Shown here piece after piece: positions 56,338 through 63,916 of a stretch of DNA of 64,000 bases (position 1 is the first letter of the stretch; the number at the start of each line of letters is the position of its first letter). The translations under genes and the position numbers were made by a program. Source of the stretch: Bifidobacteriaceae bacterium (GTDB lineage: Bacteria; Actinomycetota; Actinomycetes; Actinomycetales; Bifidobacteriaceae). The stretch spans positions 62,001 through 126,000 of the forward strand of contig JALCQD010000003.1 of assembly GCA_022651005.1 (NCBI GenBank). The letters run 5' to 3'. Below the pieces are notes generated by a model, which made no database searches, was not told the origin of the DNA, and saw nothing but the letters and a program-made list of their open reading frames with translations.

Positions 56338-56717
56338 GGCAACTCCCTTGTTGCATTCGTTGTCGCAGCTGCGTTTGTTACTCCAGTTGCGTTTGTTGTT
56401 ACCGTGATTCGCAACACCTCCATTGGCGCTGTGCGGGAGTCGGAAACCTTGCGATTGCAACCCCCGATGAGTGCCAAGGTACATCCCTCCGGAAGATAAA
56501 GCAACACGGCGTTGAGTCGTCGCCGAGCCGAGGACAGGCCGTGTTGAGATTCTGTACTTCATGACTTCCATCGTGAAGACCGGCATAAAAATGCCTGTGC
56601 GAAACCGGGAGCTCATTTTCATGATGCTTCGCACAGGCATAAAAATCATTACCTACTGGCAGACAACCTGCCGCAGGTGTTGGCCCGCCATCGCAAACGA
56701 ACGCGAACCCTTAATCC
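56338..56717. other. 380-bp gap with two long hairpins
   Basis: No gene supported. It contains hairpins CAACACGGC/GCCGTGTTG (56502-56546) and ATGCCTGTGCGAA/TTCGCACAGGCAT (56591-56640). Confidence 0.55.
56591..56640 (-). terminator. Terminator-like hairpin after the MaoC gene
   Basis: Perfect 13-bp arms around a 24-base loop; on the minus strand the stem is followed by TTTTATG. It lies 78 bases beyond the MaoC stop and probably ends the long operon that begins upstream of 63916. Confidence 0.6.
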
Positions 56718-57203
56718 TCATTCTCCGTCCAGCACGGAAGCGGCCTCCGTCACGGCCTCTGCTTCTCGCTTCTGGCACATCAGCAGATGGTCGGCCACCA
56801 TCACCACCTCATCGTTCTGATTCTTGATGGCGAGCCGCTCCACCACCATGCCCTTGTCGGGATGCTTGGTGTCACGCTTGTCGTGAATCGTCACCTCCGT
56901 ATGAATGGTGTCGCCAATGAACACAGGCTTCACGAAGCGCAAATGATCGTATCCGTAGGAGAACGCCACCGGGTTCACGAACGACGCCGTGAGCCCCACG
57001 CCCACGCTGAACGTCAGCGTTCCGTGGGCAATGCGCTTGCCGAACTCCGTCGTCTTGGCGAATTCGGCGTCCATGTGATGGGGGAAGAAGTCGCCGGTCT
57101 GCCCGGCATGGATCACGAAGTCAGCCTCCGTGATGGTGCGCCCGCCCGTCACTCGGACGTCTCCCAGCGTGTAATCCTCGAAATAGCAAGCTTTCGTTTC
57201 CAT
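56718..57203 (-). CDS. MaoC-family (hot-dog) dehydratase
   Basis: About 161 residues with a single hot-dog fold of the MaoC/(R)-specific enoyl-CoA hydratase type. The catalytic-loop region reads [20 protein letters not shown] and GKRIAHGTL; the aspartate and histidine that activate water are visible as D-x4-H. The ATG at 57203 follows AAAGGG. It begins five bases after the CoA-transferase stop, so the two are translated together and the substrate is probably an acyl-CoA made by that transferase. Confidence 0.9.
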
Positions 57204-57208
57204 ATCAA

Positions 57209-59785
57209 TCACCCTTTCGTTGAATGTCGTACAGAATCTGCGGCGAAGCCCAGGCGGGCAAGCACCTCCTCCGTGTCCTGCCCCACCGTGGGTGCTGCGC
57301 GACCCACACCAGCCGCCGTACCACCGCTGTCACTTCCCTGTGCGCCAGGGCCATTGTCGCCGCCGTCCGCGCGCACGCCGTCAAATCGGATCGGACACCT
57401 CATGGCCGCCACCTTCGTGCCGTCCGCCCTCTCCACCGTCTGCGTCATCTCCAACGCTGCGAACGCCTCCGAGTGCATGAGCCGATCCCACGTGTACACG
57501 TCCGCGCACCACACGTCCGCGGGTTCGAGAATCTCCAACCAGTGCGCCGTGGTCTCCTTCACGAGCCAGCAGGCGAGAATGCGCTTGATCTCATCGCGCT
57601 GCGTGTGCCAGCTCTCGGGATTCGTGTATTCCTGCAGCGCCTCGCACCCCAGCAGCTCCCCGAGGCGAGGAATCGGGATCATGGCGAGCGCCAGATATCC
57701 GTCCGCCGTTTCGTAGATTCCGTACGGGGCGTCGATGTAGGCGTTTGCGTTGTTGACGGCGCTGCGCTGCGGCAGGCCACCGCCGTTGAGATAGGTGGTG
57801 AACACCTCGAACTGCGCGTCGAGTATTGCTTCGAGCAGGCTCACGTGGACGTGGGAGCCCGCTCCGCCTCGCCGCACTTGCAGGACGCCGGCGAGGACTC
57901 CCTGCACGAGATCCTGCCCGGCGAAAAGATCTGCTATGGACAGGCCGAAGGGCGTGGGAGGCTGGTCGGCATTGCCGTTGAGCCAGCACGCACCCGAGAG
58001 CGCCTGCACCAAAAGGTCCTGCCCCGGCTTATCTCTCCAAGGGCCCTTGTATCCCCATCCCGTGATCTCGCCGTAGACGAGCGCGGGATTGAGGGCCTTG
58101 AGCTGGTCGTAGCTCACGCCAAGGTGGGCGGCAACGCCGGGGCGGAAGTTGACGAGCGCAATGTCCGCTTCCTTCACCAGCGCTGCCACAATTTTTTGCG
58201 ACTCCGGGGCCTTGAGGTCCAGTGCCAAAGATTTCTTGTTGCGGTTGATGGCATGGAACAGCGAGCTGTCGCCGTCGATCACGCAGTCGGAGATGTACAT
58301 GTGCCGGCAGATGTCGCCGGTACCCGGCCGCTCGATTTTGAGGACGTCGGCACCCATATCTGCAAGGCGCAGAGCCGCCGAAGGCGCGGAGAGGAATTGA
58401 CCAAAGTCGAGGACCTTGAGGCCGGCGAGAGGACGGGACGGCACCCCTCCACCCGTCGATAATATTGGGCCGGAGCCAGGAGTCGGGCGTGGCTCTGATT
58501 TGTGGACAACAGTAGAGCCTTCCTCCGTCCCCTGCTCCAACCCAAATTCTTGAGTGATTTTCTCGGTCTGCTCGCCGAGGCGCGGGGCAGGCCGAGAAAC
58601 CGACCGGGAAGCAGCGCTTCCCAAGAATGAAATGGGGCATCGCGTGGTGTACAGGTGATTCTGGCCGCCATCTCGTGCCACGTCTTGAATGAAATCGAGG
58701 GCCTTGAACGCCTCCGACCCCACAAGCTGCTCCCACGTGTACACGTCAGAGCACCAAACTCCCGCGGGCTCGAGGATTCCCAGCCAGTGCGCCGTAGTGC
58801 CCGTTGCCAAGACGACTGCGATATCACGCTTGATGAGGTCTCGGTCGCTGAACCAGGCGGATTCGTCGGTTCTCGCTGCCACCGCCGGTGAGCCGATGAG
58901 CTTACCGAGTTTCGATACCGACCCCATGGCGAGCGCGATGGAGCCGTCGGCGGTGTCGTAGATTCCGTACGGTGCGGCAAGGTAGGGGTGCGCGTTGCGG
59001 AAGGCGGCGCGTTGGGGTGGCTTGTGACCGTCGTTGAGATAGGTGCTGATGACCTCGAACTGCAAGTCGAGAATGGAGCTGAGCAGACTCACCTCGACAT
59101 GCGCTCCGAGGCCGCTGTTCTGTCTGCGGCCAAGTGCCGCGAGAATGCCTTCTACTGCGTGGACACCTGTGTATGAGTCCGCCAGGGACAGCGCGAACGG
59201 CATGGGCGGCTGGTCGGCGTCGCCGTTGAGCCACGTGAGTCCTGATAGGGATTGCACCAGCAGGTCCTGGCCCGGTTTGCCAACCCAGGGTCCCACTGTT
59301 CCGTAACCCGTGATGCTGGCGTACACCAGTCGTGGATTCAGTTCGTGGACTGCCTCGTATCCCAGTCCCATGCGGTCCATCACGCCGGGGCGGAAGCTCT
59401 CGACGAGCACGTCGGCCTGAGCGATGAGTTTTTGGGCGCGGCGCAAGCCTTCTGGATCCTTGGTGTTGAGTTCAATGCTCTCTTTGTTGCGGTTGATGGT
59501 GTGGAAGTTGACAGCGTCACCGTCGGAGACGAGCCCCTGTAACGCAAGCCTGCGGGAGCCGTCTCCAGATCCCGGCCGTTCCACCTTGATGACTCTGGCT
59601 CCCAGATCCGCCAGGCGCAGCGTCGCAGAGGGGCCCGCCAGATACTGGCAGAAATCCAGAACGACGAGGCCCGCAAGCGGACCAGAATCCGTATTGTCAT
59701 TGTCTTGATTGCCGCGCGCGCCATGCGGAGCACCGGTCTCCGTTTCGGACTGCGCTCCGGAGTGTAGTCCATCTGGGAATGCCAT
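57209..59785 (-). CDS. Tandem two-domain CaiB/BaiF family III CoA-transferase
   Basis: An 858-residue fusion of two complete family III CoA-transferase domains, at about residues 38-400 and 440-830; the usual protein has one domain of about 400 residues. Each opens alike ([40 protein letters not shown]) and each keeps the catalytic aspartate in KPGQDLLVQ. The enzymes move CoA between carboxylic acids, for example succinate, formate or carnitine. GAGG precedes the ATG, after the SBP-like gene stop. Two intact active sites suggest a pseudo-dimeric single chain or two coupled transfer reactions. Substrate is unknown. Confidence 0.92.
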
Positions 59786-59795
59786 GGTCATCGCC

Positions 59796-61097
59796 TCATT
59801 TCGCCTGTTGTGACGATGTGCCCGCTCCATCGCGTGCACCGAACTCCTTGGACTCACGATACAGGGCATCGAGAGCGTCGAGAACCTGCTCGGGATCACC
59901 GCCGTCGCGCACATAATCGCGGATGGGAACGCCCGCGCGATCCTGGAAGTAGAGGTACCCGCTGTAGCGCGGTCGCATCCAGGTGTTGTCGAGGGTCGTA
60001 AGCGTGCCGTCGAAGAAATCAAGTGTCGCTGCGTTGTTGACGGCGTCCACCCACGCGTCGCGGTATCCGGGCTGGCCGCCGCAATCCGTGTACAGCGTCG
60101 TCTGCACGCGGCGTGAGAGCGCGAACTGCACGAAATCCGCTGCAATCTCAGGGCTCTTCGTCCCCGCGGAAATCGCTAATCCGGTGCCTCCGAGCACCCC
60201 TGTCAGCATCTTTCCCTGGTACTTCGGAATCGCGCCCGCTCGCAACCTGTGCGCGGCGTAGCCCCTGCGGGAGTAATTGACGTATCCGTACACGAAGGGG
60301 CAGTATCGCAGCTCCGATGATGTGGCGAGCTCCTCGTGCAGTTGAATCGGGTTCCAGCGGAAAATGTCGGCGGGGCACAGGGACGCAAGCCGCCGCATGT
60401 CTTCCAAAACCTGAACACCTACGTTACGATCCACCACAGTATCCGGCGTATCCGGCATATCTGCTGCCCCTGGCCCCCCGGTCGCGGAGAATGCCGCCGC
60501 CCGTTCGGCAGGTGCCGGCGGCTGCGTGCGCGAAGCGGATCCGGAGGAAAGGCCCGTCTCTGCGTGCCGGGGGAACAGGTTCCCGCCCGCCGTATTGCAG
60601 AACGCGTAGAAATCCATGAGGAGGTACTGGGGGGTGGCCGCATACGCGACGCCGCCTTCCTTCGCCAATTCCAGCACCTCGTCGAAGGAGGCGGGGACGT
60701 CATGGCTGTCAAGCAAATCCGGCCTCCACACCGCGACCGGAGACGCCGCGTCGATGGCGAGTGCACTTTGGAAGCCACCGAAGTTGTAACTGTCAAAAGA
60801 CGCCCCCACGGAATGCGCGCACTGGTCGGCGAGGAAATCGTGGCTCAGCAGGTCCTGCAACGGCAGTAACACATGGTGGCGCGCCGCGAAGCCCGCCCAG
60901 GGATGGTCGATGATGAGCAGGTCGTACTGCGACGCCAGTTCCCCGATGGGAGCGCTCTCGAAGTCGGTGAGCGAGCGCTTCTCCCATTCGATGTCAACAT
61001 CGCTATGAAGCTCGGAATAGCGTTGGCTCACCCCCACGATGGAGGTATACCCGCGGCTGTGATTCCACGTGATGCCCTTGAGATGAGTCTGAGTCAT
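59796..61097 (-). CDS. Solute-binding-protein fold lacking a signal peptide
   Basis: A 433-residue protein of the family 1 extracellular solute-binding type (IEWEKRSLTDFESAPIGELA, DLLIIDHPWAGFAARH, YGYVNYSRRGYAAHRLR). It begins MTQTHLKGITWNHSRGYT with no signal peptide or lipobox, and AAAGGATTTGC directly precedes that ATG; the reading upstream is arginine- and proline-rich and unrelated. It therefore seems to be cytoplasmic. No permease gene is nearby. A 60-residue Ala/Pro/Ser insertion sits mid-protein. It precedes the CoA-transferase gene by ten bases. It may sense or carry the pathway intermediate. Confidence 0.82.
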   Translation of the reverse strand: MTQTHLKGITWNHSRGYTSIVGVSQRYSELHSDVDIEWEKRSLTDFESAPIGELASQYDLLIIDHPWAGFAARHHVLLPLQDLLSHDFLADQCAHSVGASFDSYNFGGFQSALAIDAASPVAVWRPDLLDSHDVPASFDEVLELAKEGGVAYAATPQYLLMDFYAFCNTAGGNLFPRHAETGLSSGSASRTQPPAPAERAAAFSATGGPGAADMPDTPDTVVDRNVGVQVLEDMRRLASLCPADIFRWNPIQLHEELATSSELRYCPFVYGYVNYSRRGYAAHRLRAGAIPKYQGKMLTGVLGGTGLAISAGTKSPEIAADFVQFALSRRVQTTLYTDCGGQPGYRDAWVDAVNNAATLDFFDGTLTTLDNTWMRPRYSGYLYFQDRAGVPIRDYVRDGGDPEQVLDALDALYRESKEFGARDGAGTSSQQAK

Positions 61098-61240
61098 TGC
61101 AAATCCTTTCGAGATTCCTTCTGGGCGCTGAGACGCTGCGCGTGAGGTGGGTTCCGTTCCCGGCACGAGGCAAAGGAGATTGTTGGTCGGGAACGGAAGT
61201 TTTGAGGGACCGGAATGAAGCGCCGTTGCGTTCGGGCCGA

Positions 61241-61576
61241 TCAGTCGAGGTGATAAATCTGCTCCATGTCGACCCACGGGCCGTCGTCGGCGAATGGCTT
61301 CATCTGCGGGACCACGGCCGCCCACCACTTCTGCGTGGTGGGGTCGGCGGCCATCTTCGCCATGTCGGCGTCGTAGTCGTCGCCCGTGTACTCGTAGTAG
61401 CTGAAGAGCAGGCCGTCATAGTAGTAGATCGAGTAATTCTGCAGATTGCATGCCTTGATCATCTCGTTGACGCCCGCGAAGGGTGCGGAATGGTACTTCT
61501 TGTAGGCTTCGTAGCCTTCCGTTCCGTTGGTGCGCGAGACGCTGCCGAACCGCAGCGGCTTCTTTTGATCTGTCAT
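61241..61576 (-). CDS. L-rhamnose/L-fucose mutarotase-like protein (RhaM family)
   Basis: A 111-residue ferredoxin-fold protein of the L-rhamnose mutarotase family (DUF718 type). Conserved elements visible are YEAYKKYHSAPFAGVNEMI, CNLQNYSIYYYDGLLFSYYE and DPTTQKWWAAVVPQMKP. The family interconverts alpha and beta anomers of rhamnose-like sugars. AAGAAGTCC precedes the ATG. It lies between the lactonase-like gene and the SBP-like gene in the same operon. Confidence 0.88.
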   Translation of the reverse strand: MTDQKKPLRFGSVSRTNGTEGYEAYKKYHSAPFAGVNEMIKACNLQNYSIYYYDGLLFSYYEYTGDDYDADMAKMAADPTTQKWWAAVVPQMKPFADDGPWVDMEQIYHLD

Positions 61577-61622
61577 GATGGACTTCTTTCTTTCGTTGTC
61601 ACTTCATTTGTTGTGTTATCCG

Positions 61623-62543
61623 TTATTTCAATCCGTATACTCGCCGCGCATTGCCGGCGAACAGGGCCTCTCTGGCGCTGGGATCCATGCCCTCGTCGGC
61701 GGTGATGGTGAGCATTTCGGTGATCCATTGGTCCAGGCTCATCGAGACGTTGAGAACCGGGAAGTTGCTGGCGAACATCACCTTGTCAGGATCGAACGCC
61801 TCGAGCGCCACGTCCACGGCGCGCGCCAACGACTCCGTACTCCATTCCTTCTGCGGGTTGAGCCCCGACACCTTGCACACCACGTTGGGCAGCGCAGCCA
61901 GTTCTCGCATGTTGTGGCGCCACGCGTCACGGTAGGTGAGCTCTTCGGCCTTGGGATGCGCGAGTCCTACGATGTCGGCGTCCACGATGCCCATGTGATC
62001 GAGCACGATGGTGGTTCCGGGGCATTCCTTCGCCACCGTCACCAGGTCACCCATTTCCTCGCAGCGCAGGCAGGCCTCGTACACAAGTCCCTTCTGCCCC
62101 AGCAGGCGCACGTTGTTCATGAAGGTCTCGGTGAGGCAGGCGTGCGGAGGGGAGCTCGGGACGTGCAGCACCTGGCGCACGCCCTTGATCTGCGGCCACT
62201 CGTCCCATTCGTTGATGTAGCTCGGAAAGTCGGGCGAGGTGAGCGTGCCCGAGATGCAGGCTCCGCCGAACACGGTGTCCATGCTGTCCACGAGCGTGAT
62301 GGCCTTGCGATTCTCCTCGGGGCGTTCCTCATGAGCGCGATCCACCTCGATGTACACCGCCTGCTCCAGCGTGTACCCGTTCTCGGGCCGCAGCTCGGCC
62401 TTGTAATCGCGGGGAAGCCAATTTCTCTTGAGGATCGGCCCCTCGTCGTCGAGCCAGGGAAGCCGCTCGTGGTCGAGATCCCATACGTGAACATGCGTGT
62501 CGACGATATTGATACCGGATCCATCGTCATCGGTGATAGCCAT
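61623..62543 (-). CDS. Amidohydrolase-2 family protein, L-fuconolactonase-like
   Basis: About 306 residues of the TIM-barrel amidohydrolase family that includes sugar lactonases. VDTHVHVWDLDHERLPWLD is the N-terminal metal-binding signature, IVLDHMGIVDAD a second histidine site and VMFASNFPVLNV the C-terminal motif, where an aspartate is normal in GSDxP; here it reads ASNFP. AAAAGAG supports the ATG at 62543. In an operon with an oxidoreductase and mutarotase it would hydrolyse the lactone formed by sugar oxidation. Confidence 0.85.
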   Translation of the reverse strand: MAITDDDGSGINIVDTHVHVWDLDHERLPWLDDEGPILKRNWLPRDYKAELRPENGYTLEQAVYIEVDRAHEERPEENRKAITLVDSMDTVFGGACISGTLTSPDFPSYINEWDEWPQIKGVRQVLHVPSSPPHACLTETFMNNVRLLGQKGLVYEACLRCEEMGDLVTVAKECPGTTIVLDHMGIVDADIVGLAHPKAEELTYRDAWRHNMRELAALPNVVCKVSGLNPQKEWSTESLARAVDVALEAFDPDKVMFASNFPVLNVSMSLDQWITEMLTITADEGMDPSAREALFAGNARRVYGLK

Positions 62544-62570
62544 GTGCACTCTTTTCTACGGATTATTACG

Positions 62571-62626
62571 GATCGGATACCGCTTGGTACCGATCGCTGT
62601 TGATTGGTACGCATAGAAATACGTAC
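62571..62626. promoter_or_regulatory. Pair of GGTAC dyads upstream of the lactonase gene
   Basis: GATCGGATACC-GCTT-GGTACCGATC at 62571-62595 and GTACG...CGTAC at 62607-62626. TTGGTAC occurs in both, 20 bp apart. They lie 28-83 bases before the lactonase ATG, in the gap after the oxidoreductase gene, so an internal promoter with operator is possible. Confidence 0.5.
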
Positions 62627-62812
62627 GAAAGTGGGTGTGGGTGAGAAGCCCTGCAGTGATGCCGGATTCTTTAAGCGGTTGGCGTCTTCTGTCACCAACT
62701 CGCCCCGGGTTCCCCACCCACAGTTTTTAATTGTCAGATTCACGATGGCCGGCCGTCGAGGCCAATGTCATCCCGAATCTGCGGCAGACGCTCATTCAAG
62801 CGCCGTGGGTCG

Positions 62813-63916
62813 TTACTCTTCCACCGCGTAGTCGGCGACGGCGACACCACCGGTTGCGCTGGACTTGTAGGCGGCCTCCACCACGCACATGGTGTGGTAA
62901 GCGTCCTCCACGCTGTTCATGTACTTGTAGTCGGGGTCGTCGAGCTTCTTCATGAGGCCGCCCATGGTGCCGATGAACGCCTCGTTGAACCAGGAGCCGC
63001 GCACGGGCAGTTCCTTCCACGTGGGATCGTCGTAGGTGATGTACTCGACCTTGTCCGGCTCGCCCTCTGGGTAGTTGTACATGAGGCCGAGCTTGATGCG
63101 GATGGCGCCCTCGAGACCCTCGATCTTCAGCGTGGACTCCTGGTACTTCTTGGAGTAGTCGTGGTTGAAGTTGATGTGTAGGTTGACGCGCAGATCCGGG
63201 CCGTAATCCAGGATGATGGAGGTGCGGGTCTGGGCGAGCTTGCGCATCTTGGGGTGCTGCATGGTCTTGCAGTACACGGAGGTGGGGTCGCCCACGAGGC
63301 AACGGATGTTGTCGATGTAGTGGATCGAGTGGTAGTTGATTTCCACGCGGTCCTTCGGGAAGAGGAAGGGCCACAGGTCCCATGGCTGGGTTCCCACGAG
63401 GCGATGGTCGATGTCCACGATCTCTCCGATGGTTCCCTTGGCAATGAGGTCGCGGGCGGCGATCATGTACGGAGCCTGACGCAGCTGGAAGTTGACGCCG
63501 GCAGTGAGATTCTTGGAGTGGCAGGTGTCGAGGATCCTGCGCGCCTCCTCGATGTTCTCGCCCATCGGCTTCTGCATGAGTACTCCCGCTCCGTCGGGCA
63601 GCTGCTCGAGGATGTCGGCGGTGAAGTTCGCAGGGACAGCCACGTCGAAGACGGCGTCGTTCTTCTTGCCGTAGTCCACGATTTCGTCGATGGAATCGAA
63701 GACGTTCTTGGCACCGATCTCGTCGGCCGCCTGTTCCGCCGCGTCGTGGTTGACGTCGTACGTCGCCAGCACCGGATAGCCGGCAAGCTTATATGCCGGA
63801 TAGTGCGAGCCCTGCACGATGCCGCCGGTCCCGATGCTCACAATGGGGCGCGGGGTCGTTGGCATTTCCGGTTTGTAATTCAGTTCGTCGATGGAATCGA
63901 CATTGTCTACAGCCAT
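62813..63916 (-). CDS. Gfo/Idh/MocA-family oxidoreductase
   Basis: A 367-residue NAD(P)-dependent sugar dehydrogenase. The Rossmann motif IVSIGTGGIVQGSHYPAYK is at the N-terminus, the catalytic-loop MQKPMGENIEEARR (the EKP motif reads QKP) lies near residue 120, and the C-terminal beta-sheet domain follows, with VNFQLRQAPYM and EINYHSIHYIDNIRCLVG. AAGAAGGCC precedes the ATG at 63916. As the first gene here of the mutarotase/lactonase operon, it probably oxidises a sugar at C1 to the lactone. The operon may continue upstream beyond the window. Confidence 0.88.
   Translation of the reverse strand: MAVDNVDSIDELNYKPEMPTTPRPIVSIGTGGIVQGSHYPAYKLAGYPVLATYDVNHDAAEQAADEIGAKNVFDSIDEIVDYGKKNDAVFDVAVPANFTADILEQLPDGAGVLMQKPMGENIEEARRILDTCHSKNLTAGVNFQLRQAPYMIAARDLIAKGTIGEIVDIDHRLVGTQPWDLWPFLFPKDRVEINYHSIHYIDNIRCLVGDPTSVYCKTMQHPKMRKLAQTRTSIILDYGPDLRVNLHINFNHDYSKKYQESTLKIEGLEGAIRIKLGLMYNYPEGEPDKVEYITYDDPTWKELPVRGSWFNEAFIGTMGGLMKKLDDPDYKYMNSVEDAYHTMCVVEAAYKSSATGGVAVADYAVEE

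Follow-up and report, generated by a model that had tools for sequence, protein, structure and literature searches.

The stretch of DNA analysed here (the window) comprises 64,000 nucleotides of a 2.16 Mb Bifidobacteriaceae genome (G000:C3:62001-126000; contig JALCQD010000003.1), whose genus is small (n = 3 genomes) and stands apart within the family, outside the species-rich genera. Near the end of the window, mechanical calling of open reading frames (ORFs) delimited a row of six genes, all on the minus strand and running from 63916 to 56718, which in the order of transcription encode a Gfo/Idh/MocA oxidoreductase, an amidohydrolase, a RhaM-family mutarotase, a protein with the fold of a solute-binding protein (SBP), a double CaiB-type coenzyme A (CoA) transferase, and a MaoC-type hydratase. 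Profile matches confirmed the families, strand, and limits that a first-pass annotation had read from the letters. This candidate operon, in which an oxidation half is followed by a CoA half (SBP, CaiB pair, and hydratase; hereafter the module), is the subject of the present analysis.

In the CoA half the genes are tightly packed, as had been remarked for the part downstream of 61097: the SBP and CaiB genes are 4 bp apart, and the CaiB and MaoC genes either overlap by 4 bp or are spaced by 5 bp, depending on the start codon chosen. Higher up, 269 nt separate the Gfo gene from the amidohydrolase gene and 143 nt the RhaM gene from the SBP gene, and a third spacing is 46 nt; these gaps leave it likely, rather than certain, that the two halves are carried on one transcript. 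The 269-nt gap (62544-62812), which measures about 30 nt in the corresponding operon of another genome, G462, may contain a second promoter or regulatory site. A terminator-like hairpin with a U-rich tail lies 3' of the MaoC gene (56586-56640, minus strand), with a folding energy of -30.4 kcal/mol over 91 nt and a z of -3.18 relative to shuffles. A consensus terminator scan did not list it, the loop being longer than that scan allows, and the consensus promoter and terminator scan gave counts close to the shuffle level. Beyond the window edge, the gene row starts on the same strand with a RhaT-like symporter (PF06379), beyond which, farther from the window, lies a divergent gene for a LacI-family regulator.

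The CoA half: SBP-fold protein, CoA-transferase, and hydratase

The SBP-fold protein (59796-61097, minus strand; PF13416, PF01547) starts with an ATG at 61097 and has no hydrophobic segment at its N-terminus, in line with the earlier claim that it lacks a signal. Its structural model had a pLDDT of 90.2, and the closest structures were sugar-binding SBPs. An export leader was not found in the family either: 75 of 85 homologues have the start of the conserved N-terminal motif within their first 10 residues, and the rest have no hydrophobic leader. Invariant residues (Trp, His, Arg, and Asp) delineate a conserved site. The protein is proposed to be a partner of the CoA-transferase that binds sugar acids, and our guess is that it serves CaiB in the cytoplasm by binding the aldonate. 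Many Bacteroidota loci encode a second, distinct SBP-like protein, apparently leaderless too, between CaiB and Gfo (L027:12661-13785, L028:12436-13665, and similar loci).

The CoA-transferase gene (57209-59791, minus strand) scored 625 bits with two matches to PF02515, whose cut-off is 23.3. The tandem CaiB/BaiF of the first-pass annotation needs one amendment: both full class III domains belong to a single ORF of 860 aa. The catalytic aspartate (Asp169 of formyl-CoA transferase) is present in both domains, and it was kept in 73 of 73 pairs at other loci. The closest PDB sequence was a formyl-CoA transferase, and the protein (P0002) matched the succinyl-CoA:mesaconate CoA-transferase model NF041294 with an E-value of 4.7e-105, yet far under the equivalog cut-off. 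Judging by its family, the pair would transfer CoA to an aldonate.

The MaoC-type protein (P0003; 56718-57203, minus strand; PF01575, 93.4 bits), with an alternative GTG start at 57212 that overlaps the CaiB stop, is a putative aldonyl-CoA dehydratase. Its sequence GDFFPHH contains the Asp-x4-His catalytic motif, and GDxxPxH was found in 37 of 46 cluster members; the crotonases that occur at related loci kept GGGxE in 22 of 25 cases. PaaZ was the closest named MaoC-type family. The protein is also close to PDB entry 4ffu (E 8e-62), titled only 'oxidase', and so belongs to a solved enzyme type that has no assigned function. A crotonase was ruled out as the hydratase of this host, as its genome, searched one family at a time, contains no ECH_1 protein whatsoever.

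The sugar-oxidation half

The first gene of the row (62813-63916, minus strand), a proposed sugar 1-dehydrogenase, matched PF01408, PF22725, and PF02894 above cut-off but reached no equivalog in NCBIfam. Its orthologues are 80% identical in two Bifidobacterium-type operons and 43-46% identical in rhizobial and Bacteroidota loci. The amidohydrolase (61623-62543, minus strand; PF04909) is a candidate aldonolactonase; its best NCBIfam match, L-fucono-1,5-lactonase NF052480, remained below the equivalog cut-off (130 of 400 bits), and its top PDB matches were 6uvz and 4dlf. The RhaM-family protein (61241-61576, minus strand; PF05336, 74.2 bits, above cut-off) also stayed below the cut-off of the L-rhamnose mutarotase equivalog YiiL TIGR02625 (36.9 of 99.6 bits).

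Conservation of the gene set

A profile search of the genome collection with the SBP returned at least 535 related stretches, from which the best 80 loci were taken, together with loci from plasmids and genomes. Genes were then counted by tblastn over 91 loci, which were chosen by SBP similarity, are dominated by Bacteroidota, and are interrelated. CaiB lay beside the SBP-fold protein at all 91, and two or more CaiB were present at 81. MaoC was found at 56 loci and crotonase at 29; 82 loci had either, and three had both, against 17.8 expected. Aldonate-forming genes (Gfo, aldehyde dehydrogenase, or lactonase) were present at 77 loci. The 23 loci with an aldehyde dehydrogenase all had a crotonase, and in agar degraders they sit by genes for glycoside hydrolase family 2 and agarases with carbohydrate-binding modules.

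Both halves occur together in Actinomycetota, Bacillota, Pseudomonadota, and Bacteroidota, with varying gene orders and strands. Since the same gene set recurs across phyla, the join between oxidation and CoA genes, which the first-pass annotation had singled out in this operon, is not accidental. Within the Bifidobacteriaceae the SBP protein is rare (4 of 189 genomes), whereas it is common elsewhere. The operon order is identical in G558, a genome of the same genus as the host. In G439 and G462, which are of the Bifidobacterium type (a large genus), the CaiBs are separate ORFs, the RhaM and SBP genes flank a gene for an aldolase of the dihydrodipicolinate synthase (DHDPS) family, and the gene for a lactaldehyde reductase (FucO) lies behind the LacI gene; the FucO of G462 scored above the curated equivalog cut-off. 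No match to the module was found on phages, and the Citrobacter SBP-CaiB-CaiB DNA had no match among E. coli genomes.

Downstream genes and the missing dehydratase

Two sets of downstream genes accompany the module. One consists of the DHDPS-family aldolase, at several loci with FucO, and occurs in Actinomycetota, Bacillota (including Clostridia), and Pseudomonadota (including Enterobacterales). The other, found in Flammeovirga, Persicobacter, Carboxylicivirga, and others, is a zinc-dependent alcohol dehydrogenase (Zn-ADH) followed by a KduD-like short-chain dehydrogenase/reductase (SDR); such a pair is credited with converting 2-keto-3-deoxy-L-galactonate in one agar degrader (PMC10163077). 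Since both sets consume 2-keto-3-deoxy sugar acids, the module stands between the aldonate and the 2-keto-3-deoxy aldonate, at a dehydration step. The usual dehydratases are not encoded there: neither an enolase-superfamily nor an IlvD/EDD gene was found in the host operon or at 83 of the 91 related loci, and IlvD/EDD was found at none of the 91. As to the enolase superfamily, G439, a genome in one contig that has the full cluster, showed no MR_MLE_C protein above cut-off and no fuconate dehydratase homologue, whereas G462 encodes two MR_MLE_C proteins, on contigs other than that of its cluster.

Proposed pathway

These observations on gene content, conservation, the integrity of domains and active sites, and absent dehydratases led us to propose, with a probability of about 0.58, an oxidative, non-phosphorylating sugar pathway in which dehydration depends on CoA and the metal-dependent dehydratase is replaced. 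The first-pass annotation had expected the CoA part to activate and hydrate a carboxylic acid; given neighbours that consume 2-keto-3-deoxy acids and the lack of the usual dehydratase, dehydration of the sugar acid itself is more likely.

The individual steps, like the substrate and the role of the SBP-fold protein, are inferred from family chemistry. The sugar would be taken up by the RhaT-like symporter, its anomers exchanged by RhaM, its C1 oxidized by the Gfo/Idh/MocA enzyme, and the lactone ring opened by the amidohydrolase. The CaiB pair, assisted by the cytoplasmic SBP-fold protein, would then place CoA on the aldonate, and the C2 proton of the aldonyl thioester would be more acidic. 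Removal of the C3 oxygen of aldonyl-CoA by MaoC would give a 2-hydroxy-enoyl-CoA, which would tautomerize to the 2-keto-3-deoxy acyl-CoA. If the CoA is handed on to the next aldonate, it would act only as a catalyst and the net reaction would require no ATP, both of which hold for carnitine dehydration. Once free, the 2-keto-3-deoxy acid would be cleaved by the DHDPS-family aldolase to pyruvate and a short aldehyde (lactaldehyde in the case of a 6-deoxyhexose), which FucO would reduce; in the host, the aldolase and FucO may be supplied by a separate L-fucose cluster. In the loci of agar degraders, crotonase would act in the place of MaoC, and aldehyde dehydrogenase in the place of Gfo and lactonase, and the same elimination would open the anhydro ring.

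If true, genes that are annotated as transport (SBP) or acyl-CoA metabolism (CoA-transferase, MaoC) would form one sugar-catabolic module in gut, soil, and marine bacteria, which would add a CoA-thioester route to sugar-acid dehydration, give cytoplasmic SBP-fold proteins a function, and hint at bacterial use of rare deoxy or algal sugars. We advance only tentatively, as less probable than not, the broader idea of a widespread third route of aldonate dehydration beside the enolase-superfamily and IlvD/EDD enzymes, in which CoA thioesters, a CaiB pair, and a cytoplasmic SBP-fold subunit would handle anhydro, O-methylated, or oddly configured sugars refractory to metal-dependent dehydratases.

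Comparison with known systems

The non-phosphorylating L-fucose/L-rhamnose pathway of Xanthomonas and Sphingomonas has been proposed for bifidobacteria (PMC5080750). The operon shares with it the dehydrogenase, lactonase, and mutarotase families, whose genes are adjacent, and a related LacI; the DHDPS-family aldolase and lactaldehyde reductase that also belong to that pathway are absent from the operon of the host, but occur in those of G439 and G462 and in the host's L-fucose cluster. The operon differs in lacking a metal-dependent aldonate dehydratase, in having Gfo/Idh/MocA instead of an SDR, and in its additional SBP, two CaiB, and MaoC.

In carnitine dehydration by E. coli, a class III CoA-transferase converts a hydroxy acid to the CoA ester that a hydratase-family enzyme dehydrates, and the CoA is recycled. 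The likeness of the operon to CaiB and CaiD of the cai system, which has been reviewed (PMC2131755), is one of analogy, namely dehydration by a CoA-transferase and a hydratase with recycling of CoA. Unlike the cai operon, it has MaoC in place of the crotonase CaiD, two CaiB, an SBP-fold protein, and surrounding sugar genes, and it contains no CaiA, CaiC, or CaiT partner. A CaiB-family transferase is also paired with a MaoC-family hydratase in the haloarchaeal methylaspartate cycle, as succinyl-CoA:mesaconate CoA-transferase and mesaconyl-CoA hydratase (PMC5592240); there, however, the substrate class and context are others, CaiB is single, and there is no SBP partner. As to the 3,6-anhydro-L-galactose (AHG) pathway, the aldehyde dehydrogenase of agar-type loci has a relative in 6j75, an AHG dehydrogenase structure, but these loci have crotonase and SBP-CaiB-CaiB in the place of the enolase-superfamily cycloisomerase of 3,6-anhydro-L-galactonate, no gene for which was found within them. 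The CoA-based module is conserved among widely differing bacteria and seems to be undescribed in the open-access literature, where no paper on this gene combination was found, which given that scope is weak evidence of novelty.

Points against the proposed pathway and alternative explanations

Several points weigh against CoA-dependent dehydration of the aldonate. The need for an SBP fold and for two CaiBs is left unexplained by it, and we know of no enzyme of these loci that forms aldonyl-CoA. The host operon has no aldolase or FucO gene of its own, both being present in the separate L-fucose cluster. The rarity of loci with both MaoC and crotonase has a p-value of 4e-12 if the loci are independent, but as they are mutually related and SBP-selected, this value overstates the case and is a rough guide only. 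The negative result for dehydratases in G439 covers the enolase superfamily; IlvD/EDD paralogues were not searched. Finally, at 8 of the 91 loci an enolase-superfamily gene is present together with the module, which may act otherwise there.

The possibility exists that the module acts on another acid of the same sugar route, either an O-methylated or otherwise modified one or one arising downstream of a conventional dehydratase whose gene lies elsewhere, and not on the primary aldonate. Such a role would suit these eight loci, including rhizobial ones that share Gfo, RhaM, lactonase, SBP, CaiB, and MaoC, and also the frequency of a canonical plain-sugar route in the hosts (the L-fucose cluster of G000; the L-rhamnose isomerase RhaA in five Enterobacterales/Anaerostipes genomes with the module and one Cohnella). 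The hydratase domain of PaaZ, the named family nearest to the operon's MaoC, has an enol ether as its substrate, which also counts in favour of such a role. A second AHG dehydrogenase homologue of Flammeovirga pacifica, inactive on AHG (PMC6581685), points the same way. Nevertheless, G439 has the full cluster and no enolase-superfamily dehydratase genome-wide, and no obvious demethylation genes were seen beside the module. We consider this explanation less likely than the proposed pathway, but the strongest of the alternatives.

It is very unlikely that the row consists of two unrelated head-to-tail operons, one for deoxy-sugar oxidation (RhaT, Gfo, lactonase, RhaM) and one for a carboxylic acid (SBP, CaiB-CaiB, MaoC): the gaps between Gfo and amidohydrolase and between RhaM and SBP would allow it, but the halves recur jointly in four phyla in differing orders and on differing strands. 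A service of the CoA part to the lactaldehyde/propanediol branch, such as conversion of lactate to propionyl-CoA, is suggested by loci where FucO adjoins MaoC or lies near the module. However, the agar-type and Zn-ADH/KduD-type loci hold the module without FucO, and MaoC-type hydratases need a 3-hydroxyacyl-CoA, whereas lactoyl-CoA has no 3-hydroxyl; we regard this branch as the most improbable target.

Substrate and other clusters of the host

To judge by the RhaM, RhaT, and FucO families, the substrate is probably a 6-deoxyhexose. The first-pass annotation had been reminded of L-fucose or L-rhamnose breakdown; the oxidative deoxy-sugar type of the genes stood, but neither sugar was established as the substrate, given the separate L-fucose cluster of the host and RhaA elsewhere. 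RhaA was found in 6 of 11 other module-bearing genomes tested (all four Enterobacterales, Anaerostipes, and one Cohnella) and in none of the 189 Bifidobacteriaceae genomes. With L-fucose genes in the host and RhaA in module-bearing genomes, a rarer or modified sugar is possible, and the substrate is perhaps other than plain L-rhamnose or L-fucose. Alpha-L-rhamnosidase was dropped as a clue to the substrate because it did not discriminate, 73 of the 189 family genomes having one and the host none.

The canonical L-fucose cluster of the host lies outside the window (G000:C3:165542-173798; L040:7542-15798) and encodes FucO, a DHDPS-family aldolase, a fuconolactonase-like amidohydrolase, a major facilitator superfamily (MFS) permease, an SDR, an enolase-superfamily dehydratase, and a LacI. 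Identity is 51% between this LacI and the operon's, and 66% between this FucO and the one of G462; a simple palindrome scan found no LacI operator shared by the operon and the cluster.

Other clusters were observed outside the window. One on G000:C5 (L041:6243-9223), with families read from the sequences alone, appears to be another sugar-acid cluster, with an enolase-superfamily protein, a PfkB-type kinase, a protein like 2-keto-3-deoxy-6-phosphogluconate aldolase, and an MFS permease, and a KduD-like SDR nearby. A cai/bai-like cluster, surprising for Bifidobacteriaceae, lies at G000:C4:163622-173042 (L005:3622-13042) and comprises two acyl-CoA dehydrogenases, an MFS permease, a single CaiB, an AMP-dependent acyl-CoA ligase, and a double-hotdog MaoC. 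At G000:C3:128690-130642 (L004:12690-14642), adjoining the LacI gene of the operon, is a gene for a PF05935 arylsulfotransferase with an N-terminal membrane segment.

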